NCBI RefSeq assembly: GCF_016097555.1
Contig: NC_054702.1
Span: 76,325,679-76,389,678, forward strand
DNA: 64,000 nt
Origin: Gigantopelta aegis
Lineage: Eukaryota; Mollusca; Gastropoda; Neomphalida; Peltospiridae
Direction: 5' to 3'
Part shown: piece by piece, positions 8,298 to 64,000 of the stretch
Layout: every line of letters starts with the position of its first letter
Position numbering within the stretch: the first letter of the stretch is position 1
Translations under genes and position numbers: made by a program
The notes under the pieces: model-generated
Seen by the model: only the letters and a program-made list of their open reading frames with translations
Databases searched by the model: none
Told to the model about the DNA's origin: nothing

Positions 8298-8616
8298 AAC
8301 AGAATGTTGAACGTGAACATGACACAACACACACACCAAAACATTAGCATAACATAGCACGCACAACAGAAGCTGAACATGACGTAGCACACACAACAGA
8401 AGCTGAACATGACGTAGCACACACAACATAAGCTGAACATGACATAGCACACACAACAGGATATCAACATAACATAGCTCACGCAACAGAACCTGAATAT
8501 GATATATAGCATACACAATAGAACTTGGCACATCAATGACAAACAAGACCTGAACATAACATAGCCAAAAGCTGAACATGAGAAAATAATCACCATAGAA
8601 AATGAACGTGACATAG
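8298..8616 (+). repeat. about 28-bp minisatellite, left part
   Basis: The unit is close to CACACAACAGAAGCTGAACA plus TGACGTAG. About 11 units, continuing at 8827 after the SINE. Confidence 0.9.
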
Positions 8617-8628
8617 CACTTGCGACAG

Positions 8629-8814
8629 TTTATTTGTTTGTTTTGTTTAACGACACCACTAGAGCACATTGATTAATTAATCATCGGCTAATGGATGTCA
8701 AACATTTGGTAATTATGACTCGTAGTCATCAGAAGAAACCCGCTACACTTTTCCTACTGCAGCAAGGTATCTTTTATATGCACTTTCCCATAGACAGGAC
8801 AGCCTTTATCCAGT
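8629..8814 (-). mobile_element. SINE, tail B, 5'-truncated, inside a minisatellite, 12-bp TSD
   Basis: A perfect CACTTGCGACAG lies at 8617-8628 and 8815-8826. It holds tail B and half the centre only. The flanks are two parts of one minisatellite, so the insertion point within a repeat unit is exact. Confidence 0.93.
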
Positions 8815-8826
8815 CACTTGCGACAG

Positions 8827-9080
8827 AACCTGAACATGACATAGCACTCACAACAGAACCTGAGCATAATAGAGAACTCACAACAAAACCTAAACATGAT
8901 GTGGCACACACAACAGAACCTGAACGTGACATAGTACACACAACAGAACCTGAAGAAGAACATGACAGAACACACATACAACATACCATGGTCATGACAG
9001 CACACACAAGAGAACTTGAACATGACATATCACTCTCAATAGATGCAGAAAATAATTTAGCACACAACAGAAACCGGAAG
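8827..9080 (+). repeat. about 28-bp minisatellite, right part
   Basis: Units ACAACAGAACCTGAACATGA plus CATAGCAC. Units become irregular after 8960. All frames stay open through much of it, so the ORFs here are repeat artefacts. Confidence 0.88.
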
Positions 9081-9129
9081 ATTGATCACTTAACATTCAA
9101 CAAAACACGGAGAAAACACTGCACATAAC

Positions 9130-9625
9130 ATAGTCTGGAGATATCACTGAACACACATCAAACATAACCTGGATAGATCTCTGAACACAGTAGAACCTGA
9201 AGAGAACACTGAGCACAACAGAACCTGGAGAGATCACTGAACACACAATAGAACTTGGAGAGATCACCAGACACACAACGGAACCTGGAGAGACACACAA
9301 TATAACCTGGAGAGATCACTGGACACACAACAGAACCCGGAGAGATCACCAAATACACAATAAAACCAGGAATGTGCACTGAACACACAACAGAACCCGG
9401 AGAGTACACCCAAAACACAAAAGAACCTGGAATGATCACTGGACACACAATAGAACCTGAAGAGATCACTGGGCACACAACAGAATCTAGAGAGATCACT
9501 GAACACACATTATAACCTGGAGAGATCACTGAACACACAACAGAACCTGGAGAGTACACCCAACGCACAGCAGAAGCTGTAGGGGTTACTGTTCACTTAA
9601 TATAACCTGGAGAGAATCCTGCATA
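9130..9625 (+). repeat. about 29-bp minisatellite, second type
   Basis: The unit is close to ACACAACAGAACCTGGAGAG plus ATCACTGA, about 16 copies. It is a clear relative of the first array (shared CACACAACAGAACCTG), with GGAGAGATCAC replacing AACATGACATAG. Confidence 0.9.
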
Positions 9626-48772: not shown

Positions 48773-48784
48773 TGGTCTGTAAAA

Positions 48785-49048
48785 ACTTTTGTTTTGTTTA
48801 ACGACACCACTAGAGCACATTGATTTATTAATCATCAGCTATTGGGTGTCAAACATTTGGTAATTTTTACAGTCTTAGAGAGGACACCTGCTATATTTTT
48901 CCATTAGTAGTAAGGGATCTGTTACATGCACCATCCGCACATACCACGGTCTTTGGTATACCAGTCGTGGTGCACTGGCTAGAGCAAAAAATAGCCAAAT
49001 AGGCTCACCAAAGGGGATCGATTCCATACTGACTGCGTATCAAGCTCT
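48785..49048 (-). mobile_element. SINE, tail B, 12-bp TSD
   Basis: TGGTCTGTAAAA at 48773-48784 and 49049-49060. Head 1 is partly missing after GACTGCGTATCAAG. Confidence 0.92.
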
Positions 49049-49154
49049 TGGTCTGTAAAAGAATTACTACAAATGGGATACATTTTATAATGGCTATTAA
49101 AATCCGTTGTAGGATCCAGGGGATGGTTACAGGGCTACCGTCCAAAAGGCCGAG

Positions 49155-55812: not shown

Positions 55813-58023
55813 TGATTTTGAGATTCAGCACCTTACCTCCCTAGTACATTGTGTGTAGTTGTTACTTGATCATAGCAAACTCTCACACTATCACATGTTA
55901 GCTAATTGATTACTGATATACATCAGGAAATGTTAGCAAATTTAAAATGTAGGGATGACATGATATATTAACAACATATTTTTACATGTGTACAACATAA
56001 AAATGTATAAGGTTGAAAGTCATGCATAGTCACTTGAAAATAATACATTACATAATAATAAATTTTTGTTATTGATATACAAAATCTGTACATGATATTT
56101 GCAATTGTAATTTTAACAAATTATTTGACTGGTATGAATAGTTAGTTCATTGTTAATAATATGTTTTATTCAATCAAACAATTTGGTACATGACTGTTTT
56201 TTTTTTAACATACAGAAATTATTTATTGTGAAAAATGCATTTAAAAAGTGTTGAATATACTTGCATTTGTTATGAAGAATTTTACTTTTTGAATACAGGA
56301 AATTTTATTTCTGGACATCTAATTTTCAAACGTTTATGGGGGAGTATCGCCCTTGACTGCTAGGATCTCAGGCACTTCGCTCCCTTGAGCTTAGCCCACC
56401 ATACTCTAGACCACTGCCTGCAAAATGTCCTGCACACACACCTTCTAATGCCTCATGCCTTCCATGCTTGTTCATTCCAAGATTTTTATCTGATTCCACA
56501 CCCCTCCCTTCGCCAAAAATTCTAGCTATGGCCCTGAATCACCTACAAATTATCCCAGCATTCCAGAACTCTGAAGTTCTGATTCACTATTATGTTACAC
56601 TAGATATAACTTGTGCTACACACAGGATACTGGTAGTTTAGATGGAGTCGAGTGACATGGCGGTTATATTTTTTGGGAAAGCCCAAAATATGACTGCTGT
56701 GTCTCATTAGCCAAAGCTATATATACGGCTGTCATGTACATAGCCACTTGTATGTTAAGTAGCAAGAATAACGACCTCCATTGCAGTTGTATTTATGAAA
56801 TTGATCTTTGTATGCAATATTTTGCATGATGTGTGTATGATAGTCGACTGAACCGGAACACAAAATGATCCTTGTGAAGGGCGGCATCAGGGAAGTACAA
56901 AGAAGATGGTCGGCATTGCAAATGAAAAGAAAAGTGATCAGAATAATTGGAAACTGTTAAAAAGACCTTGCAAATTATATTATAGATTTCTAAAAAGTAT
57001 TTTAAAACAACCTAAAAGGTTATATAAAAGGTACTTTAAAAAGATGCAGTATCATATAAATTCTGGCATGTACAAAATGGTATTCATCTTCTGTAGATAT
57101 TAGGACAACCAACAACCCACCATTGGCATGTTCAGGAGGCCAAGTACTCGTGGATAATTTGACTGATCCCATGGTTTTCTATCGTATCACATTACTCTAA
57201 TAATGTCAGGATACAAAAACAGTCAAGTTTTGCTTGCCCTCCTGAATGTAGAAATAAATATTTTAAACAAGTAACTGTGGATTAAATTTACAATGTTTAA
57301 ACACCTGCATTTAAGGCAAACAGGCATTGTAAATTTCAACTTTGTGTTTCAACCTGAGCTATTATACAATGTTTATGGCGAATTGTATAAAGAGATTTAA
57401 TTGTGGATTTGTTTCTCAATGATCACAAAATCTTTTAGACACCTCATTTATATTATCTGTCAGGTTCCAAGGTAGGAATGTTCTTTAGAAATATGAAGTA
57501 ATAGAGATACAGATGAGATTGTTTTTACCGTGCAATACAACATTTACTACATGAATAATGATGTATATTTAACCATATAAATAATAAACTACCTTCATGA
57601 TTTTCACAATTTCTTTTGTGTAATGTATCGGTAAATTAAAGAATATTTTATAGTAATAATTCCTTACTTAAAATTGATGATTTTCAACAATGTAAATACG
57701 TTAAATAATGTGGCTCCCTTTTATACAAACAAATTAATGACAAAAATGACACCCAACCATCACCAAAAAAATAATGGTTATTAGTACTTTAACTCTAAAT
57801 AATCTAGAACTATAATTCATGCACTTCCAAAAAGGTTTTGCGCAGACAGAATTATAGCAAAATAGCTACCTGTCTTCAATTAATACTTACCATGAAAGTA
57901 TACTACTATCAGAACTATTATCAACTAAAATCAATGTATTACAAACTGTTTTTATAGTAAAGTCCTGTTCAGAATGCATAGCAGATTTTTTAAATTCTCA
58001 TGAAATATAAATCTTCACTGTAA
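55813..58023. other. downstream flank of GALM, no gene seen
   Basis: AT-rich; presumably holds the GALM 3'UTR at its right end. A GC-richer piece at 56335-56530 is not assignable. Confidence 0.35.
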
Positions 58024-58104
58024 TTAATCAATGAGACCAAATTTGTAAGATGTCGTCTGTCGGTATGTCTCGCCTGGATGCAAAATAATGTTTGGAAAAT
58101 GTTT
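58024..58104 (-). CDS. GALM: GALM terminal exon
   Basis: The acceptor is TTATTTTCAG|AAACAT. It encodes [20 protein letters not shown] then KFGLID and TAA, matching the family C-terminus (LRPGEEYDHTTWFKFSV). It was found by frame and motif because it is too short for ordinary ORF calling. It lies about 1.3 kb beyond the previous exon, across a stretch with (AT)n tracts and a hAT-like terminus. I could not pick a convincing poly(A) signal. Confidence 0.92.
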   Translation of the reverse strand, partial: KHFPNIILHPGETYRQTTSYKFGLID

Positions 58105-58144
58105 CTGAAAATAATAATCATAAAACAATTACAATGACAATGAC

Positions 58145-58183
<39 letters not shown>

Positions 58184-58356
58184 CCCATAAACAAATGTAA
58201 AATAGTGAAACTTTTTAGCTAAGGTAGGCCTCACACAAATATATGATGACTTGCAGTGGAATATTGGCAATGATTTGTAGAACCCTTAAAAACCAAAGCA
58301 TCAATATTTTTTTACAAAATTATAATATATTTAATATATTAATTATATATACACCA

Positions 58357-58421
<65 letters not shown>

Positions 58422-60919
58422 TACACTGGTATATATACACACACATATATATATATCAAAGATGGGGCGATTACTTGACAAAAGTAATCGATTATGATTA
58501 CGATTACTTTAGAATGTCACAATTATGATTACGATTACAAGATAATTGAAAGTAATCGATTACGATTGCAAATACATTGTCTAGCAATCATGATTACAAT
58601 CATGATTACATTTCCACAAATGTACACAAATAATGAAATGATGTTACCACCATGAAGTTATGCACTTTATTTTACAACCATACCAACTTCATTCATTGAA
58701 AGACATAATGGATAATTTTTTATTATTTATTAAATTATTTCAAACATTTATAAACATATGTATACTGCATGGAGGGAATCAGTTTCGAAAACCAGATTAT
58801 TGACGAAAAGGTACCCATAACCATAGGTATAATTATTGTATCAATGCATAACATATATATTTTGTTATATTATTGAAATAAGCCATAATTAGTAATTGCA
58901 AACTGTCTGATCACTATTACTTGTTGTTTTATATTTTTTGTAGAACGTATACCATTTAATACCATCCACAAATTAAAACAAATTATTATTTTTATTAAAT
59001 CTATAAATGAAGAAATAAAAAACTAAAGAAAAGAACAAACAAGTAAATAAATAATTAAATTGATATCTGCATACATATACAAGTTGCTCATTGCATTTAA
59101 TTGTTGACATTCTAATAATGACTATTATTAATGAATCGATTTGCAGTCATGCTTGCTTTGTGCCATATTATAAGGATCCAATATATATATATATATATAT
59201 ACACATATATATAAAAATAAAAATGATAAAAGAAAACAAGTGTACAGTATATATGTATTTAAAAAAACTATTTTAAGAAATAACTATCCTTTTACATGTT
59301 TCATCTCATCTTCAGAAAGGAATTGCTAAATAACTGCTAAATATGACATCATACATTATATAAATATATTATTCTAGTTTTCTTTAAAAATAAAACAATC
59401 GTCAGAAAGAGAAATGTAAGTAACATCTGCATGCCTCAACTTACGTGATTGACACTGTCAGGATAGTGTTGTGCCTCCCAGGCGAACGCGCAGTATGCCC
59501 CGTACTTGGCGCCACCCTTGCCCGCCATAGACGGCACAGCATAGGCAGTGTACAGCTGGATGGCTGGCTCCGTGGTGTAACACTCCAGGTAACGACCTGT
59601 GCCTCGGTGCTCCGCTCTACAACAAACACAAATACAGTCGAACCTGTGTTATATAGCCACCAAAAGGTAGATTTAAAAAGTTGCCTTTTGATATAGGTGG
59701 TTGCTTAATACAGGTAAGTTTATACTATACAGGTGGGGTGGGACGTAGCTCAATGGTAAAGCGCTTGCTTGATGTGCGGTCGGTGTGGGATCGATCACCG
59801 TGAGTGGGTCTATTTCTCGTAGCCAGTGCACCACGACTGGTATATCAAAAGTCATAGTATGTTCTATTCTGCCTCTGTGATGCTGCTAATGGAAAAATGT
59901 AGTGGGTTTCCTATATAAGACTATATGTCAAAATTACCAAATGTATGACATCCAATAGCCGAAGATTAATAAATCAATGTGCTCTAGTGGTGTTGTCAAA
60001 CTAAATAAACTTTAACTTGACACAGATGGATGCTTAATACAGGTGGTCTCTAAAGCAGGTTTTGTATATGGATACTAATTATATTTATAAATATTCAATA
60101 TATATAAAGTGAAACCTCCCCTAAAGTGGACACCATTGAGACCAAGTAAAATGTCAGGTTTAAGGGGTATCTGGTTTTGAGAGGTTCTCTTTTGTACTGA
60201 TATATAAACAGCGATTGTGAAAAACTTTCAGTTTACAGAGAATTCCGGTATTAAGAGAGTCTGGTTTCGAGAGGTTTAACTGTATATGTAAATGAGCATG
60301 AGAAAAATGTATAATGTTTTACCTTGCGGCTTGCTGAAATTGTCCAGTGTGGTTTAAGTTGTAGTTACAGTTAAATCCATTGCCACCAGGAATATCATTT
60401 ATAACGTCACCAAGACGAACCATCTTCCGCAGATCCTCAGGAAGACCATCAAGACTGCGGATTTCTCCTGAATAATGCAAAGGAAAGGAATGTTTCTTTA
60501 ATGACACCCCAGCACATTGTTTAATCAGCAGCTACCAAATGTATGGTAACTCTTACATCTCCTGAATAAAGAACAACCAAACAACCCCAACCCCACATAA
60601 CAAGGGAAATAAGTAGCAAAATGTATTGACAATCAAAAGAAATGCAAATATAAATTTCAGCTATAAAATTAAATTTAGTTTTTGAGATGAAATTATCACA
60701 AGAGAAGTATAGGTTGCATCATAACACAGAATTGGGCATTTATAATCAAGTGAACTTATTCTAATTCCAAACAACCACAACCCTAATTTGCATTTCTTTT
60801 GATGTTCAGTATAGTTACTAATAATTAATATCTAGTTTATTTTCTAATTCTGTCAATTTATTTATTTTACTTTATTTATTTATTTATTTATTTATTTATT
60901 ATTATTTATTTGTTATTTT

Positions 60920-60952
<33 letters not shown>

Positions 60953-63900
60953 TGAAGTAAAATCCCATTTATACGATGTTTATTAAAAATTTCCAACAAA
61001 CCAATGTAACTGCATGAATCTGTTCTGGGATTAGCTTCTATCCTGAGTGGTGTTGCATACCCAGGATACTGTGACTGAATGTTAGTTGGATGTGAACATA
61101 AAAATATTTACCCTGCAATATTGACCACTGTGTGTATAAGGACTGTTTAAAGCAAAGTAACAAATGGCTACTAACAAACCACTGACCTGTTGGAATAACG
61201 TTCTCATCAACAGGTAAGTAAGTATCTGCTTTGATGGTCATAAAATGGTCGTCAATCTTCCCACAACCCTAAATATAAATGAGAATATGAAGTTTAAAAT
61301 ATGATATACACATATACAGATGCAGCACTTCAGATTGTAATCAAATCATGATGCTCAAAAGACTGCTGTAATTGACAAGTTAAAAAAGGTGCTCAGTATG
61401 CAGTGCACAAATTAAGTGATAATATTTCCATCAGAAACAATATGACTACCATTAATTTCTTCATTTATTTATACAAGAAAGTAAGGGTTTTAAATTTAAA
61501 TAATCCTAAAAGACTCTGAAGGACCTAAATACCATAAACATACATAACTAGTCCAACCTATTCACAGACATATACTGATGGAAAGAAATAAGGGAACACA
61601 TGGAATTGTAGACCAAATATAATTCACAACTAGCATAGTAATGTCTGTATTTCATGCCAAGTTGTAATGTGGGATTGAATGTCTGTAGTGTTGAATGAGC
61701 TGCCTATATGTTCCCAGTCAACTTCTGACAATATCAATTGATTTTTTATGCAGTCTTTATTTCTTGTTGCTATCTGTGTGATCCTTTATTTCTTTCCATC
61801 AGTATATTAAGAAAATGTCTTTTCAAAGCTGATACATTTTACTGCTTACAAATTGCTCTTAATTAGTATTCATATTTAATATTTTAAAAAATATTCAAAT
61901 TATTCATAAAATTTACATACTTTAAAATTAAAATTTAGCTAAGGCAAGCATAGAACATTTCCTCAAAAACATATATTCTATAACTCTAAATTGGAGTATA
62001 AAAATAATACTTACATGGCCTCCTAGATTGAAATAGCTGTGACTTGTCAGCCCAACGGGTGTGGGCTTTGTTGTAGTAACAGTATAGTCTATTTTAAGTT
62101 GGTTGTCATCGGTCAGCTCGAAGACAACTGTTGAGGTTACCTCCCCTGGAAACTTCTCCTCACCATCAGGACTGACATATGTCAGTATGAGTTTATTGTT
62201 CTCAACGCGAGCAGTCCACATTACCTACAAAATGAAGATACAATTATACCTACTCATCCAGATACCTCCATTATTCTGCAACCTGTCTAATGAGACACTT
62301 TAATTAATATTCTCCCGAAGATCTAATACATGTATATAGTACAGTGAACCCCCTCAAATCCGGAATTTCCTCAAAACTGGACTTTTTTTCACAGTCTCTT
62401 TTTAAATATTAGTACAGAACATAACCTCTCTAAACTGAAAAGCCCTTAATATCTTATTGTGTTTTACCTGGTTCCATGGAAGTCATGTTTAGTTTTACTG
62501 TACATACTAGCCTGCAGGTCTACATACAGAGACCAGTTTTTAAAAACTCTAAGTTGTTGCTTAATACATATTTGACTGTCTATTATACCAAATAAACTGT
62601 TAGTAAATTGTATATTTATGCAAATCAATATATTGTAAACACAACTGAATGATTATTTGTAAGAAACATTGTTTCTTTTGTTTAACGACACCACTAGATT
62701 ACATTGATTTATTAATCATCGGCTGTTGGATGTCAAACATTTTGACATATAGTCTTAGTTAGGAAAACCCACTACATTTTTCCATTAGTAGCAAGGAATC
62801 TTTTATATGCACCATCCCACAGACAGGATAGCACATACCATGGCCTTTGATACCAGTCGTGGCAACCCATGCAATTAGGAAAATGTCCATGGCAAAAAAC
62901 ATTGAAGTAGAAAAACAAATTGAATATAGTGCACAGCCAAAAGATGCTGTGGAGAATTGGAAACTGGCAATCTTCATGGCATAACTGATTGCCATGGGTA
63001 ATTGCAGGAGTTACATGGTGCACTAGCTGGAATGAGAAATAAAGAAAACATTGTCTACAAAGTGTCCTCATGGTAGATCTCAAAATGGACCATGACACAA
63101 GGTTACTTGCTTTATCAAATCCCTTGAATCCACCATGTAGAAAGTTGGGCTCATTGTTCACAGGTAGAACATATTCTTTCCCATCCAACGAGAACTTTCC
63201 ACCTGCAATACGATTGGCTACTCTTCCTATCAAACCTCCAATATATGCAGGATTTTTTTCATATCCTGAAAAAAACGGAAATTTTTCTTTTTAAAAAAAC
63301 CCAATAGAGTTCTATGATGATGTATGCCATATGTGTTACAACTGACATGGTAGCACTAGAATGATAGTGACATCAGAATATTTTTTTTGTTAAGAACACA
63401 ATAATTTTCATAATAATCTTTTAATAAAGGTGTGTCAAAACATAATTTGTGGGACTATTATGGATTCAAATTCCTCCATTGCTGTTGAAAAATAAGCCAA
63501 GGAAATGTTGTAAATAAAACATTCCTTTCATTTGTAAACAATAAAACCATATATTCAAGTGACGTCAAAATGGAAAACTACGATGGATCGAACTGAAGAA
63601 GATCGATGCTATGACTTTTTACACTAAGTGTTCTTCCATAGAACTTGAAAAAGCGGCCTGTAAAAAGCTCTAAAATACACCTCAGAGGTCGTAATTCTCC
63701 ACACACTGTCCCAAACCATCCACTCACCCTGCGCTGTCTTATTTCCAACAGGCTGTATTTTTTCTTAGCAGGCCTTATTTTTTTCTGGCTGAAATCTTAA
63801 AAAATAACAACAGCATACAATATTTTACTTCCTATTTCCAGCCCTGTTCCACCACTTTACATGCCATCCATATCTATAATTCAATTTAATACCCGTACCT

Positions 63901-64000
63901 TCCATGTCATCAAAGCCTAGACAGACGTCATCAAGTTTTCCGTGTTTGTCAGGAACCACAATGCTAGAGATAGTTCCTCCATAATCTAGAATCTGAACAG
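58024..64000 (-). CDS. GALM: galactose mutarotase (aldose 1-epimerase), seven exons, N-terminus outside window
   Basis: The enzyme interconverts alpha- and beta-anomers of aldohexoses such as galactose and feeds the Leloir pathway in the cytosol. Minus-strand exons in transcript order are 64000-63899 (open at the window edge), 63265-63111, 62224-62015, 61268-61187, 60467-60323, 59616-59445 and 58104-58024 (stop TAA 58026-58024). Phases join cleanly throughout. About 315 residues are visible; the family is about 340 long, so roughly 25-30 N-terminal residues are missing. Family motifs seen are [23 protein letters not shown] (His), [23 protein letters not shown] (catalytic His), [27 protein letters not shown] (catalytic Glu) and the C-terminal [14 protein letters not shown]. 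Two positions differ from the vertebrate enzyme as I remember it: GFDHNF reads GFNCNYN, so the substrate-binding Asp is Asn, and FCLETQ reads FAWEAQ. One intron has a GC donor. Introns hold several transposons. Identification is very secure; whether this is the main enzyme or a diverged paralogue is open. Confidence 0.96.
58146..58182 (+). repeat. (AAT)n microsatellite in GALM intron
   Basis: About 12 AAT units, 40 bp from the acceptor of the terminal GALM exon. Confidence 0.9.
58358..58452 (+). repeat. (AT)n tract in GALM intron
   Basis: About 45 bp of pure AT, then a second AT tract, flanked by inverted ACACCAGTATATA / TATACACTGGTATA, so the whole can fold. Confidence 0.9.
58455..58620 (+). 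mobile_element. hAT-like transposon terminus with GATTAC subterminal repeats
   Basis: CAAAGATGGGGCGATTAC directly follows an (AT)n tract. Many GATTACGATTAC / GTAATCGATTA copies in both orientations follow within 160 bp. Such subterminal arrays next to a CARRGRTGGGGCG-type end are familiar from hAT elements. No matching right end or transposase was found, so this is a solo or truncated end. Confidence 0.5.
59445..59616 (-). CDS. GALM: GALM exon with catalytic glutamate
   Basis: 172 bp. The acceptor is TTGTTGTAG|AGCGGA and the donor AATCAC|GTAAGT. It encodes [20 protein letters not shown] through [12 protein letters not shown], which aligns with vertebrate LETQNWPDAVN, where Glu is the general base. 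GC content is clearly higher than in the flanking introns. Confidence 0.95.
59732..60018 (+). mobile_element. SINE, head 1 + tail B, in GALM intron
   Basis: GGTGGGACGTAGCTCAATGG (box A) through tail B (TAATAAATCAATGTGCTCTA). It lies in the intron between the exons ending at 60323 and starting at 59616, and splits an older MITE-like repeat (ACAGTCGAACCTGT at 59634; TTAATACAGGT after it). Confidence 0.9.
60107..60282. mobile_element. 176-bp CAGTGAAACCTC-type MITE in GALM intron
   Basis: Begins AAGTGAAACCTCCCCTAA and ends GGTTTCGAGAGGTTTAACTG with TA on both sides. Internal GGTTTTGAGAGGTTCTC suggests a second, internal terminus, so it may be a dimer. Confidence 0.7.
60323..60467 (-). CDS. GALM: GALM exon beginning GEIRSLDG
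   Basis: 145 bp. The acceptor is TTATTCAG|GAGAAA and the donor GCAAG|GTAAAA. It encodes [20 protein letters not shown] to [11 protein letters not shown]. The substrate-binding loop reads NGFNCNYNL where vertebrate enzymes have NGFDHNFCL. The acceptor lies inside a 12-bp direct repeat created by a retroposon insertion (see findings). Confidence 0.93.
60476..60557 (-). mobile_element. tail-C-only retroposon at GALM exon boundary, 12-bp TSD
   Basis: The 82-bp insert reads TTAATGACACCCCAGCACAT and AAATGTATGGTAACTC in the window strand, the same tail as the LINE at 20 kb. TCTCCTGAATAA flanks it perfectly at 60464-60475 and 60558-60569. The left copy contains the acceptor and first bases of the GALM exon 60467-60323. 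Confidence 0.85.
60855..60950 (+). repeat. (ATTT)n tract in GALM intron
   Basis: About 20 ATTT units with one interruption (TTATTATTTATTTGTTATTT). Confidence 0.9.
61187..61268 (-). CDS. GALM: GALM exon with ADTYLPVDE motif
   Basis: 82 bp. The acceptor is TATTTAG|GGTTGT and the donor ACAG|GTCAGT. It encodes [20 protein letters not shown] and then DENVIPTG, matching the family's [17 protein letters not shown] segment. Confidence 0.94.
61575..61802 (+). mobile_element. 228-bp MITE, copy 2, in GALM intron
   Basis: Same family as 28758-28985, with ends CTGATGGAAAGAAATAA and TTATTTCTTTCCATCAG and TA on both sides. It lies in the GALM intron between the HSYFNLGGH and ADTYLPVDE exons. The two copies differ by scattered substitutions without large indels. 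Confidence 0.92.
62015..62224 (-). CDS. GALM: GALM exon with SPDGEE and HSYFNLGGH motifs
   Basis: 210 bp, 70 codons, phase 0 at both ends. The acceptor is TTTTGTAG|GTAATG and the donor CCAT|GTAAGT. It contains [11 protein letters not shown] and [11 protein letters not shown], the second holding a catalytic histidine of the family. Confidence 0.95.
62342..62500. mobile_element. 159-bp CAGTGAAACCTC-type MITE in GALM intron
   Basis: Begins CAGTGAACCCCCTCAAATCC, ends TTTAGTTTTACTG, TA on both sides. More decayed than the copy at 26489. Confidence 0.6.
62668..63050 (-). mobile_element. SINE, tail B, head lost, interrupted by a MITE
   Basis: Tail B (AACGACACCACTAGATTACA) and centre run to CCAGTCGTGG at 62862 and resume TGCACTAGCTGGAATGAG at 63019. 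The CAACCC MITE lies between. Confidence 0.88.
62863..63013 (+). mobile_element. MITE with CAACCCCTGCAATT termini, copy 2, inside a SINE
   Basis: Starts CAACCCATGCAATTAGG and ends GGGTAATTGCAGGAGTTA. It splits a minus-strand SINE exactly within the otherwise conserved CCAGTCGTGG|TGCACT string. Flanks CGTGG and CATGG suggest a 5-bp target duplication with one change. It lies in the GC-AG intron of GALM. Confidence 0.85.
63111..63265 (-). CDS. GALM: GALM exon with IGRVANRI and LHGG motifs
   Basis: The acceptor is TTTTTTCAG|GATATG. The exon encodes [19 protein letters not shown] through [15 protein letters not shown]. The only end that joins in frame to the next exon (GFDK|VMWTARV, matching vertebrate GFDKVLWTPRV) is after GATAAA, giving the donor AAA|GCAAGT, a GC-type donor at 63110-63109. 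A GT two bases further (63107-63106) would break the frame. Confidence 0.93.
63899..64000 (-). CDS. GALM: GALM first visible exon (partial)
   Basis: It reads from the window edge as [18 protein letters not shown] and ends GFDDMEG with the donor GAAG|GTACGG (GT at 63898-63897), phase 1. It matches the family region just before the IGRVANRI motif. The true exon start is outside the window. Confidence 0.93.

Follow-up and report, generated by a model that had tools for sequence, protein, structure and literature searches.

The locus considered here raises the question of how a gene can keep an open reading frame when an 82-bp insert lies at the edge of one of its exons, with an identical splice acceptor on either side. 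The window, by which we mean the whole 64-kb stretch of Gigantopelta aegis DNA that was analyzed, carries on its minus strand a gene for an aldose 1-epimerase (GALM). The encoded protein matches the Aldose_epim profile (PF01263, E 6.3e-85) over profile positions 13-299 of 299, and it matches PDB entry 1snz (3.6e-92), an aldose 1-epimerase that we take to be the human enzyme. When the exons are joined with the acceptor nearer to exon 5 (the inner acceptor), they encode 314 residues without interruption from the window edge to a stop codon; the start codon lies about 2.4 kb beyond that edge in a further exon. The exons, all recognized by joining the frame, are as follows.

63899 to 64000, minus strand: GALM exon continuing beyond the window edge, "exon 1" here
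63111 to 63265, minus strand: GALM exon 2, with a GC donor
62015 to 62224, minus strand: GALM exon 3
61187 to 61268, minus strand: GALM exon 4, with the phase-1 donor ahead of the affected intron
60323 to 60467, minus strand: GALM exon 5, 145 nt from the inner acceptor; also supported by Pfam and a catalogued protein
59445 to 59616, minus strand: GALM exon 6
58024 to 58104, minus strand: GALM exon 7 and stop codon

The intron after exon 2 is of the GC-AG type, with the donor AAA/GCAAGT at 63111 on the minus strand (here and below, a slash marks the splice boundary).

A catalogued protein, P0001 (344 aa), which is of unstated source and may be a homology-based prediction rather than an RNA-supported one, is 100% identical over the 314 residues and spans the inner junction without insertion. 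At this junction, IPTG/EI, neither gap nor insertion is seen in 23 of 23 aligned proteins, namely P0001 and 22 relatives selected from the 120 listed (7812 of 7997 scored proteins passed the cut-off). The closest proteins among the matches listed are those of Haliotis, Littorina and Patella, at 58-60%.

Anatomy of the insert and its flanking repeat

Both strands of the window were searched for the 12-mer TCTCCTGAATAA with no mismatch allowed, and it is present only twice, at 60464-60475 and 60558-60569 (mean of 0.01 in shuffled sequence), with a spacer of 82 bp. Because the bases outside the two copies are unlike, the identity ends after exactly 12 bp, and the insert measures exactly 82 bp. 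On the gene strand, either copy reads TTATTCAG/GAGA, the acceptor and the first bases of the exon. An earlier note on this DNA had described just such a perfect repeat around an 82-bp insert and had identified it as the acceptor with the start of the exon, and both descriptions hold. The parts are listed below.

60464 to 60475, minus strand: inner target-site copy, TTATTCAG/GAGA; acceptor AG 60469-60468, exon 5 start 60467, GALM frame kept
60476 to 60557, minus strand: 82-bp insert between the target-site copies, delimited by flank comparison
60476 to 60534, minus strand: 59-bp SINE-type 3′ tail, the gene-proximal part of the insert, by repeat-family match; its last 3 bp (GCA) are not common to the family
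60479 to 60490, minus strand: 12-nt pyrimidine run TTCCTTTCCTTT, inside the insert and upstream of the inner AG, read from the sequence
60535 to 60557, no strand assigned: distal 23 bp of the insert, without clear family match; antisense 13-mer to a SINE-like copy in the window
60558 to 60569, minus strand: outer target-site copy, preceded by the old upstream sequence; acceptor AG 60563-60562, from which the exon would begin at 60561, with TAA after 13 codons

A 12-bp pair at such a spacing is, taken alone, not rare. After low-complexity filtering, the window contains 73 pairs of 12-bp direct repeats spaced by 60-500 bp, often in clusters such as that at 8370-9604. At the same spacing, a set of 50 first-order Markov sequences gave a mean of 2.24 pairs and a maximum of 5. 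The expectation of about two such pairs per window in Markov sequence would suit a reading in which the 12-mer recurs by chance and nothing but ordinary intron separates its copies. We reject this reading as exceedingly improbable on the Markov comparison together with the flanks: the pair is more than a chance occurrence because it exactly brackets a repeat-family sequence, the exon-side end of which is the family's 3′ end, and it contains the acceptor. In the GALM paralogue described below (L041), moreover, just one other 12-mer near the exon is similar; it lies 156 bp away, matches the exon start at 11 of 12 positions, has no AG ahead and was rejected as a duplicated acceptor.

The perfect 12-bp duplication is of the kind that accompanies a 5′-truncated non-LTR retroposon insertion, and the pre-insertion (empty) site would carry one TTATTCAGGAGA. 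RNA folding of the 82-bp insert is unremarkable (z -0.74).

The tail family and the origin of the insert

Within the window, the gene-proximal 59 bp are similar (75-84% over 30-50 bp) to other tails and to the 3′ termini of longer SINE-like repeats, and a genome search with the tail returned at least 123 matches, the query site included, with 40 of 211 candidates scored. A per-locus majority taken over up to 20 loci of this genome agrees with the tail at 55 of 56 comparable positions (56 of the tail's 59), a value that is flattered by the choice of loci for their similarity to the tail; at the single position off this consensus, the base of the insert is found in 3 of 20 loci. The insert thus shares the 3′ end of a dispersed family, as is characteristic of non-LTR retroposons, with the qualifications that the terminal GCA is unshared and that many of the genomic matches are tandem rather than dispersed. 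No tRNA-derived head is present, which makes the insert a tail fragment at most and not a complete tRNA-derived SINE; the longer SINE-like copies in the window are, judged by eye, presumably tRNA-derived. A scan of 58000-64000 against Rfam gave no match to the insert or to the longer SINE-like copies, and a scan of viral contigs for the tail gave none in a set that may omit records of the window's own genome. SINE families of molluscs are on record in the literature, going by citations in the part of PMC11203168 available.

The earlier description of the element as tail-only is apt for these 59 bp and fails for the other 23 of the 82 bp, which are not recognizable tail. This distal part (60535-60557) has no family match except one antisense 13-mer, CATACATTTGGTA: insert positions 13-25 match 59935-59947 in antisense, upstream of the tail of that SINE-like copy, and this is the only match between the insert and the longer copy at 59735-60035. 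The 13-mer might reflect a 5′ inversion of the twin-priming type, for which the match is too short to decide.

Elsewhere in the window, a SINE-like copy at 48773-49060 (match 48788-49045) has a 12-bp direct repeat, TGGTCTGTAAAA, on either side, at 48773 and 49049.

Many relatives of the tail occur in arrays. In the 20 genomic regions fetched, we observe at least 8 tail copies in 10 regions, 4 or 5 copies in 3, 3 copies in mixed orientation in one (L020), 2 in another (L018) and a single tail, within the 600-800 bp fetched, in 5. Tandem Repeats Finder reports units of 64, 81 and 109 bp in 3 of the 20 regions, L009, L010 and L012 (C9:61057800-61059300, C1:23342300-23346700 and C11:19846800-19847900), which are tandem arrays of the SINE-type 3′ tail. 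The units have the tail in common but not the spacer, as if one tail had repeatedly given rise to satellites. A gastropod satellite of comparable kind is PcH-sat of Patella caerulea, the 179-bp unit of which derives from Nin-SINE according to the portion of PMC11121367 available. Both are tandem arrays of SINE sequence in a gastropod, but as far as that portion describes PcH-sat, a Nin-SINE unit of 179 bp stands against 3′-tail units of 64, 81 and 109 bp here, a distinction made by description and not by sequence.

Tandem arrays account for many of the best genomic matches (at least 8 copies in 10 of the 20 regions), and the distal 23 bp resemble filler. Both observations would fit an origin without retrotransposition, in which a piece of a tail array was captured in a staggered break and fill-in made the 12-bp repeat. 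We nevertheless consider such a capture improbable, as the insert terminates at the family's 3′ end with a duplication of SINE size, single tails exist in 5 of the 20 regions, and the copy bordered at 48773/49049 is a second SINE-like sequence in the window with a 12-bp repeat around it. Insertion by retrotransposition is what we infer.

Two acceptors and their splicing signals

From the inner acceptor, exon 5 is 145 nt long and reads (G)EIRSLDGL, and the GALM frame continues. From the outer acceptor, the exon gains 94 nt, and translation in the phase of the upstream exon proceeds for 13 codons and then meets TAA. The full-length protein requires the inner acceptor because the outer reading stops after these 13 codons. 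The stop after about 13 codons and the need for the inner site had both been foreseen in the earlier note, as had the source of the inner site's upstream pyrimidines: the run TTCCTTTCCTTT at 60479-60490 lies within the insert, and P0001 spans the inner junction.

The signals ahead of the two sites are divided. Over positions -23 to -4 (20 nt), pyrimidine content is 0.85 for the inner acceptor, the highest of the 7 acceptors scored, and 0.75 for the outer; the ranking is the opposite in the 11 nt closest to the exon, with 0.82 for the outer versus 0.73 for the inner. The outer acceptor has two exact YTNAY motifs within 60 nt, one of them just 6 nt from the exon. In the 60 nt ahead of the inner exon there is no exact YTNAY, as is also the case for exons 2 and 6, and the element offers two candidates of relaxed form.

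60502, minus strand: candidate branch-point A in GTCAT, in the element, 35 nt upstream of exon 5; putative function
60525, minus strand: alternative candidate branch-point A in CTGAT, in the element, 58 nt upstream of exon 5; putative function

The insert also contains an AG 30 nt ahead of the inner exon. It intervenes between the CTGAT candidate and the inner acceptor, and, lying five bases past GTCAT, it is probably too near to that candidate for use.

The usual choice in splicing is the first AG downstream of the branch point. The original branch point precedes the outer AG, and first-AG selection would make it favor the outer site; the inner site therefore probably needs a branch point borne by the element in addition to the pyrimidines, a point that the earlier note leaves aside. 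Judged from these signals, mixed splicing at both acceptors is plausible. We also considered whether the outer site, where GTAAGA occurs 5 nt past the AG, might serve recursive splicing or a microexon, and rejected this for want of evidence; a 5-nt exon would break the frame. The locus has the same acceptor twice at a distance of 94 nt, once behind the old upstream signals and once behind element-derived ones, and would be a good test of competition between branch points and pyrimidine tracts.

We think it likely that the acceptor was duplicated by a retroposon-type insertion, which also brought a new pyrimidine tract, and that splicing to the inner copy yields the productive mRNA and leaves the protein unchanged. 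In the proposed sequence of events, target-primed reverse transcription would have copied an RNA with a SINE-type 3′ tail into the GALM intron at its 3′ end, in gene-sense orientation, and the 12-bp target duplication would have placed the acceptor TTATTCAG/GAGA on either side of the 82-bp insert. Productive mRNA would come from the inner copy, where the original AG and exon bases are retained, and this copy would draw the pyrimidine tract TTCCTTTCCTTT, and presumably the branch point as well, from the 3′ end of the element. The intron would then be longer by 94 nt and the protein as before. The outer copy would retain the old upstream signals, and transcripts spliced there would meet a stop after 13 codons.

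The paralogue, known systems and the age of the insertion

A comparison for the pre-insertion state is provided by a GALM paralogue on C4, on the same strand and upstream of the window gene (L041, C4:76397500-76404200, with matches within C4:76397865-76403697). It starts 5.7 kb past the start codon of the window gene and 11.6 kb from the insert, and with exon identities of 46 to 60%, it is an old duplicate and not an empty allele. Its corresponding intron, ACAG/GTAAGA ... TTTACAG/GTGAAGTC, is identical to the affected intron in position and phase. In this intron, we found no significant match to the element (best E 0.20) and no second copy of the acceptor, which supports the view, advanced in the earlier note, of a retroposon-type insertion with an acceptor-bearing target duplication. 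A protein search of the assembly (14 matches, 18 of 18 candidates scored) found no second copy of the window gene; besides that gene, its matches were the C4 paralogue and, on C1701, two GALM-like stretches.

The intron of the paralogue at an equal place and phase also sets the insert apart from introners. These elements recruit splice sites from target duplications, and most of their families bear signs of DNA transposition, according to the part of PMC9860276 available. As described there, introners resemble the GALM insert in that a splice site comes from the target duplication of an insertion, but they make a new intron, whereas the GALM insert lengthens an existing one and has a retroposon-type tail. 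Direct repeats near splice sites have also been addressed in a study that, in the part available, proposes insertion-made repeats at intron borders (PMC11782384).

The closest precedent is the canine merle SINE in PMEL. In the available portion of PMC7349775, the merle allele is described as a SINEC_Cf in PMEL/SILV at the boundary of intron 10 and exon 11, and the 15 bp of its target duplication are placed where exon 11 begins and include the original acceptor. The tail of the SINE serves as the pyrimidine tract, and tract length sets the choice of acceptor (PMC7349775, PMC6091007, both as available in part). On these accounts, the two cases share a SINE-type insertion at an acceptor, a target duplication that carries the acceptor and a pyrimidine tract from the end of the element. 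The merle SINE is antisense and gives poly(T), whereas the GALM element is in sense orientation with a 3′ end that is itself pyrimidine-rich; the competing site is a cryptic one within the SINE in merle, as those portions have it, and the outer duplicate in GALM. The effect of merle, again as reported there, is seen in RNA and phenotype, whereas the GALM case is described here at the level of DNA. Our literature searches on mollusc galactose mutarotase splicing, and under several wordings of "duplicated acceptor", returned nothing, which says little.

The insertion looks young, since the duplication is preserved at 12 of 12 positions and the tail is near a consensus that is biased toward it. 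If so, the intact frame is weak support for the tolerance proposed in the earlier note, as the locus would look no different shortly after an insertion that did damage. Alternatively, the insertion could be a recent damaging allele, hypomorphic or null and possibly heterozygous, in which the outer acceptor is used often. The perfect duplication and the 55/56 tail, in suggesting youth, would leave little time for the frame to decay; the paralogue, 5.7 kb past the start codon on the same contig, could buffer loss of the window gene; and a merle SINE at an acceptor moves splicing off the original site when its tract is long, according to the portion of PMC6091007 available. Set against these points are the shortness of the insert and the strong element-derived tract of the inner site, and we hold a damaging allele to be unlikely, if a reading to be taken seriously. 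Predominant use of the inner copy with an unchanged protein remains the reading that we prefer.

The GALM case changes no general view, as its kind is already known. If RNA confirms use of the inner site, it would be a clean natural case of a retroposon that landed on an intron's most sensitive bases and was rescued by its own target duplication. A broader and rather doubtful proposal is that the sense-strand tail of this abundant gastropod SINE-type family, with its branch-point-like GTCAT and terminal pyrimidine run, acts as a portable acceptor module. Were this true, a functional 3′ splice site would be re-created by any insertion with an AG in its target duplication, exon-edge insertions would survive preferentially, and the GALM exon would be one of many.
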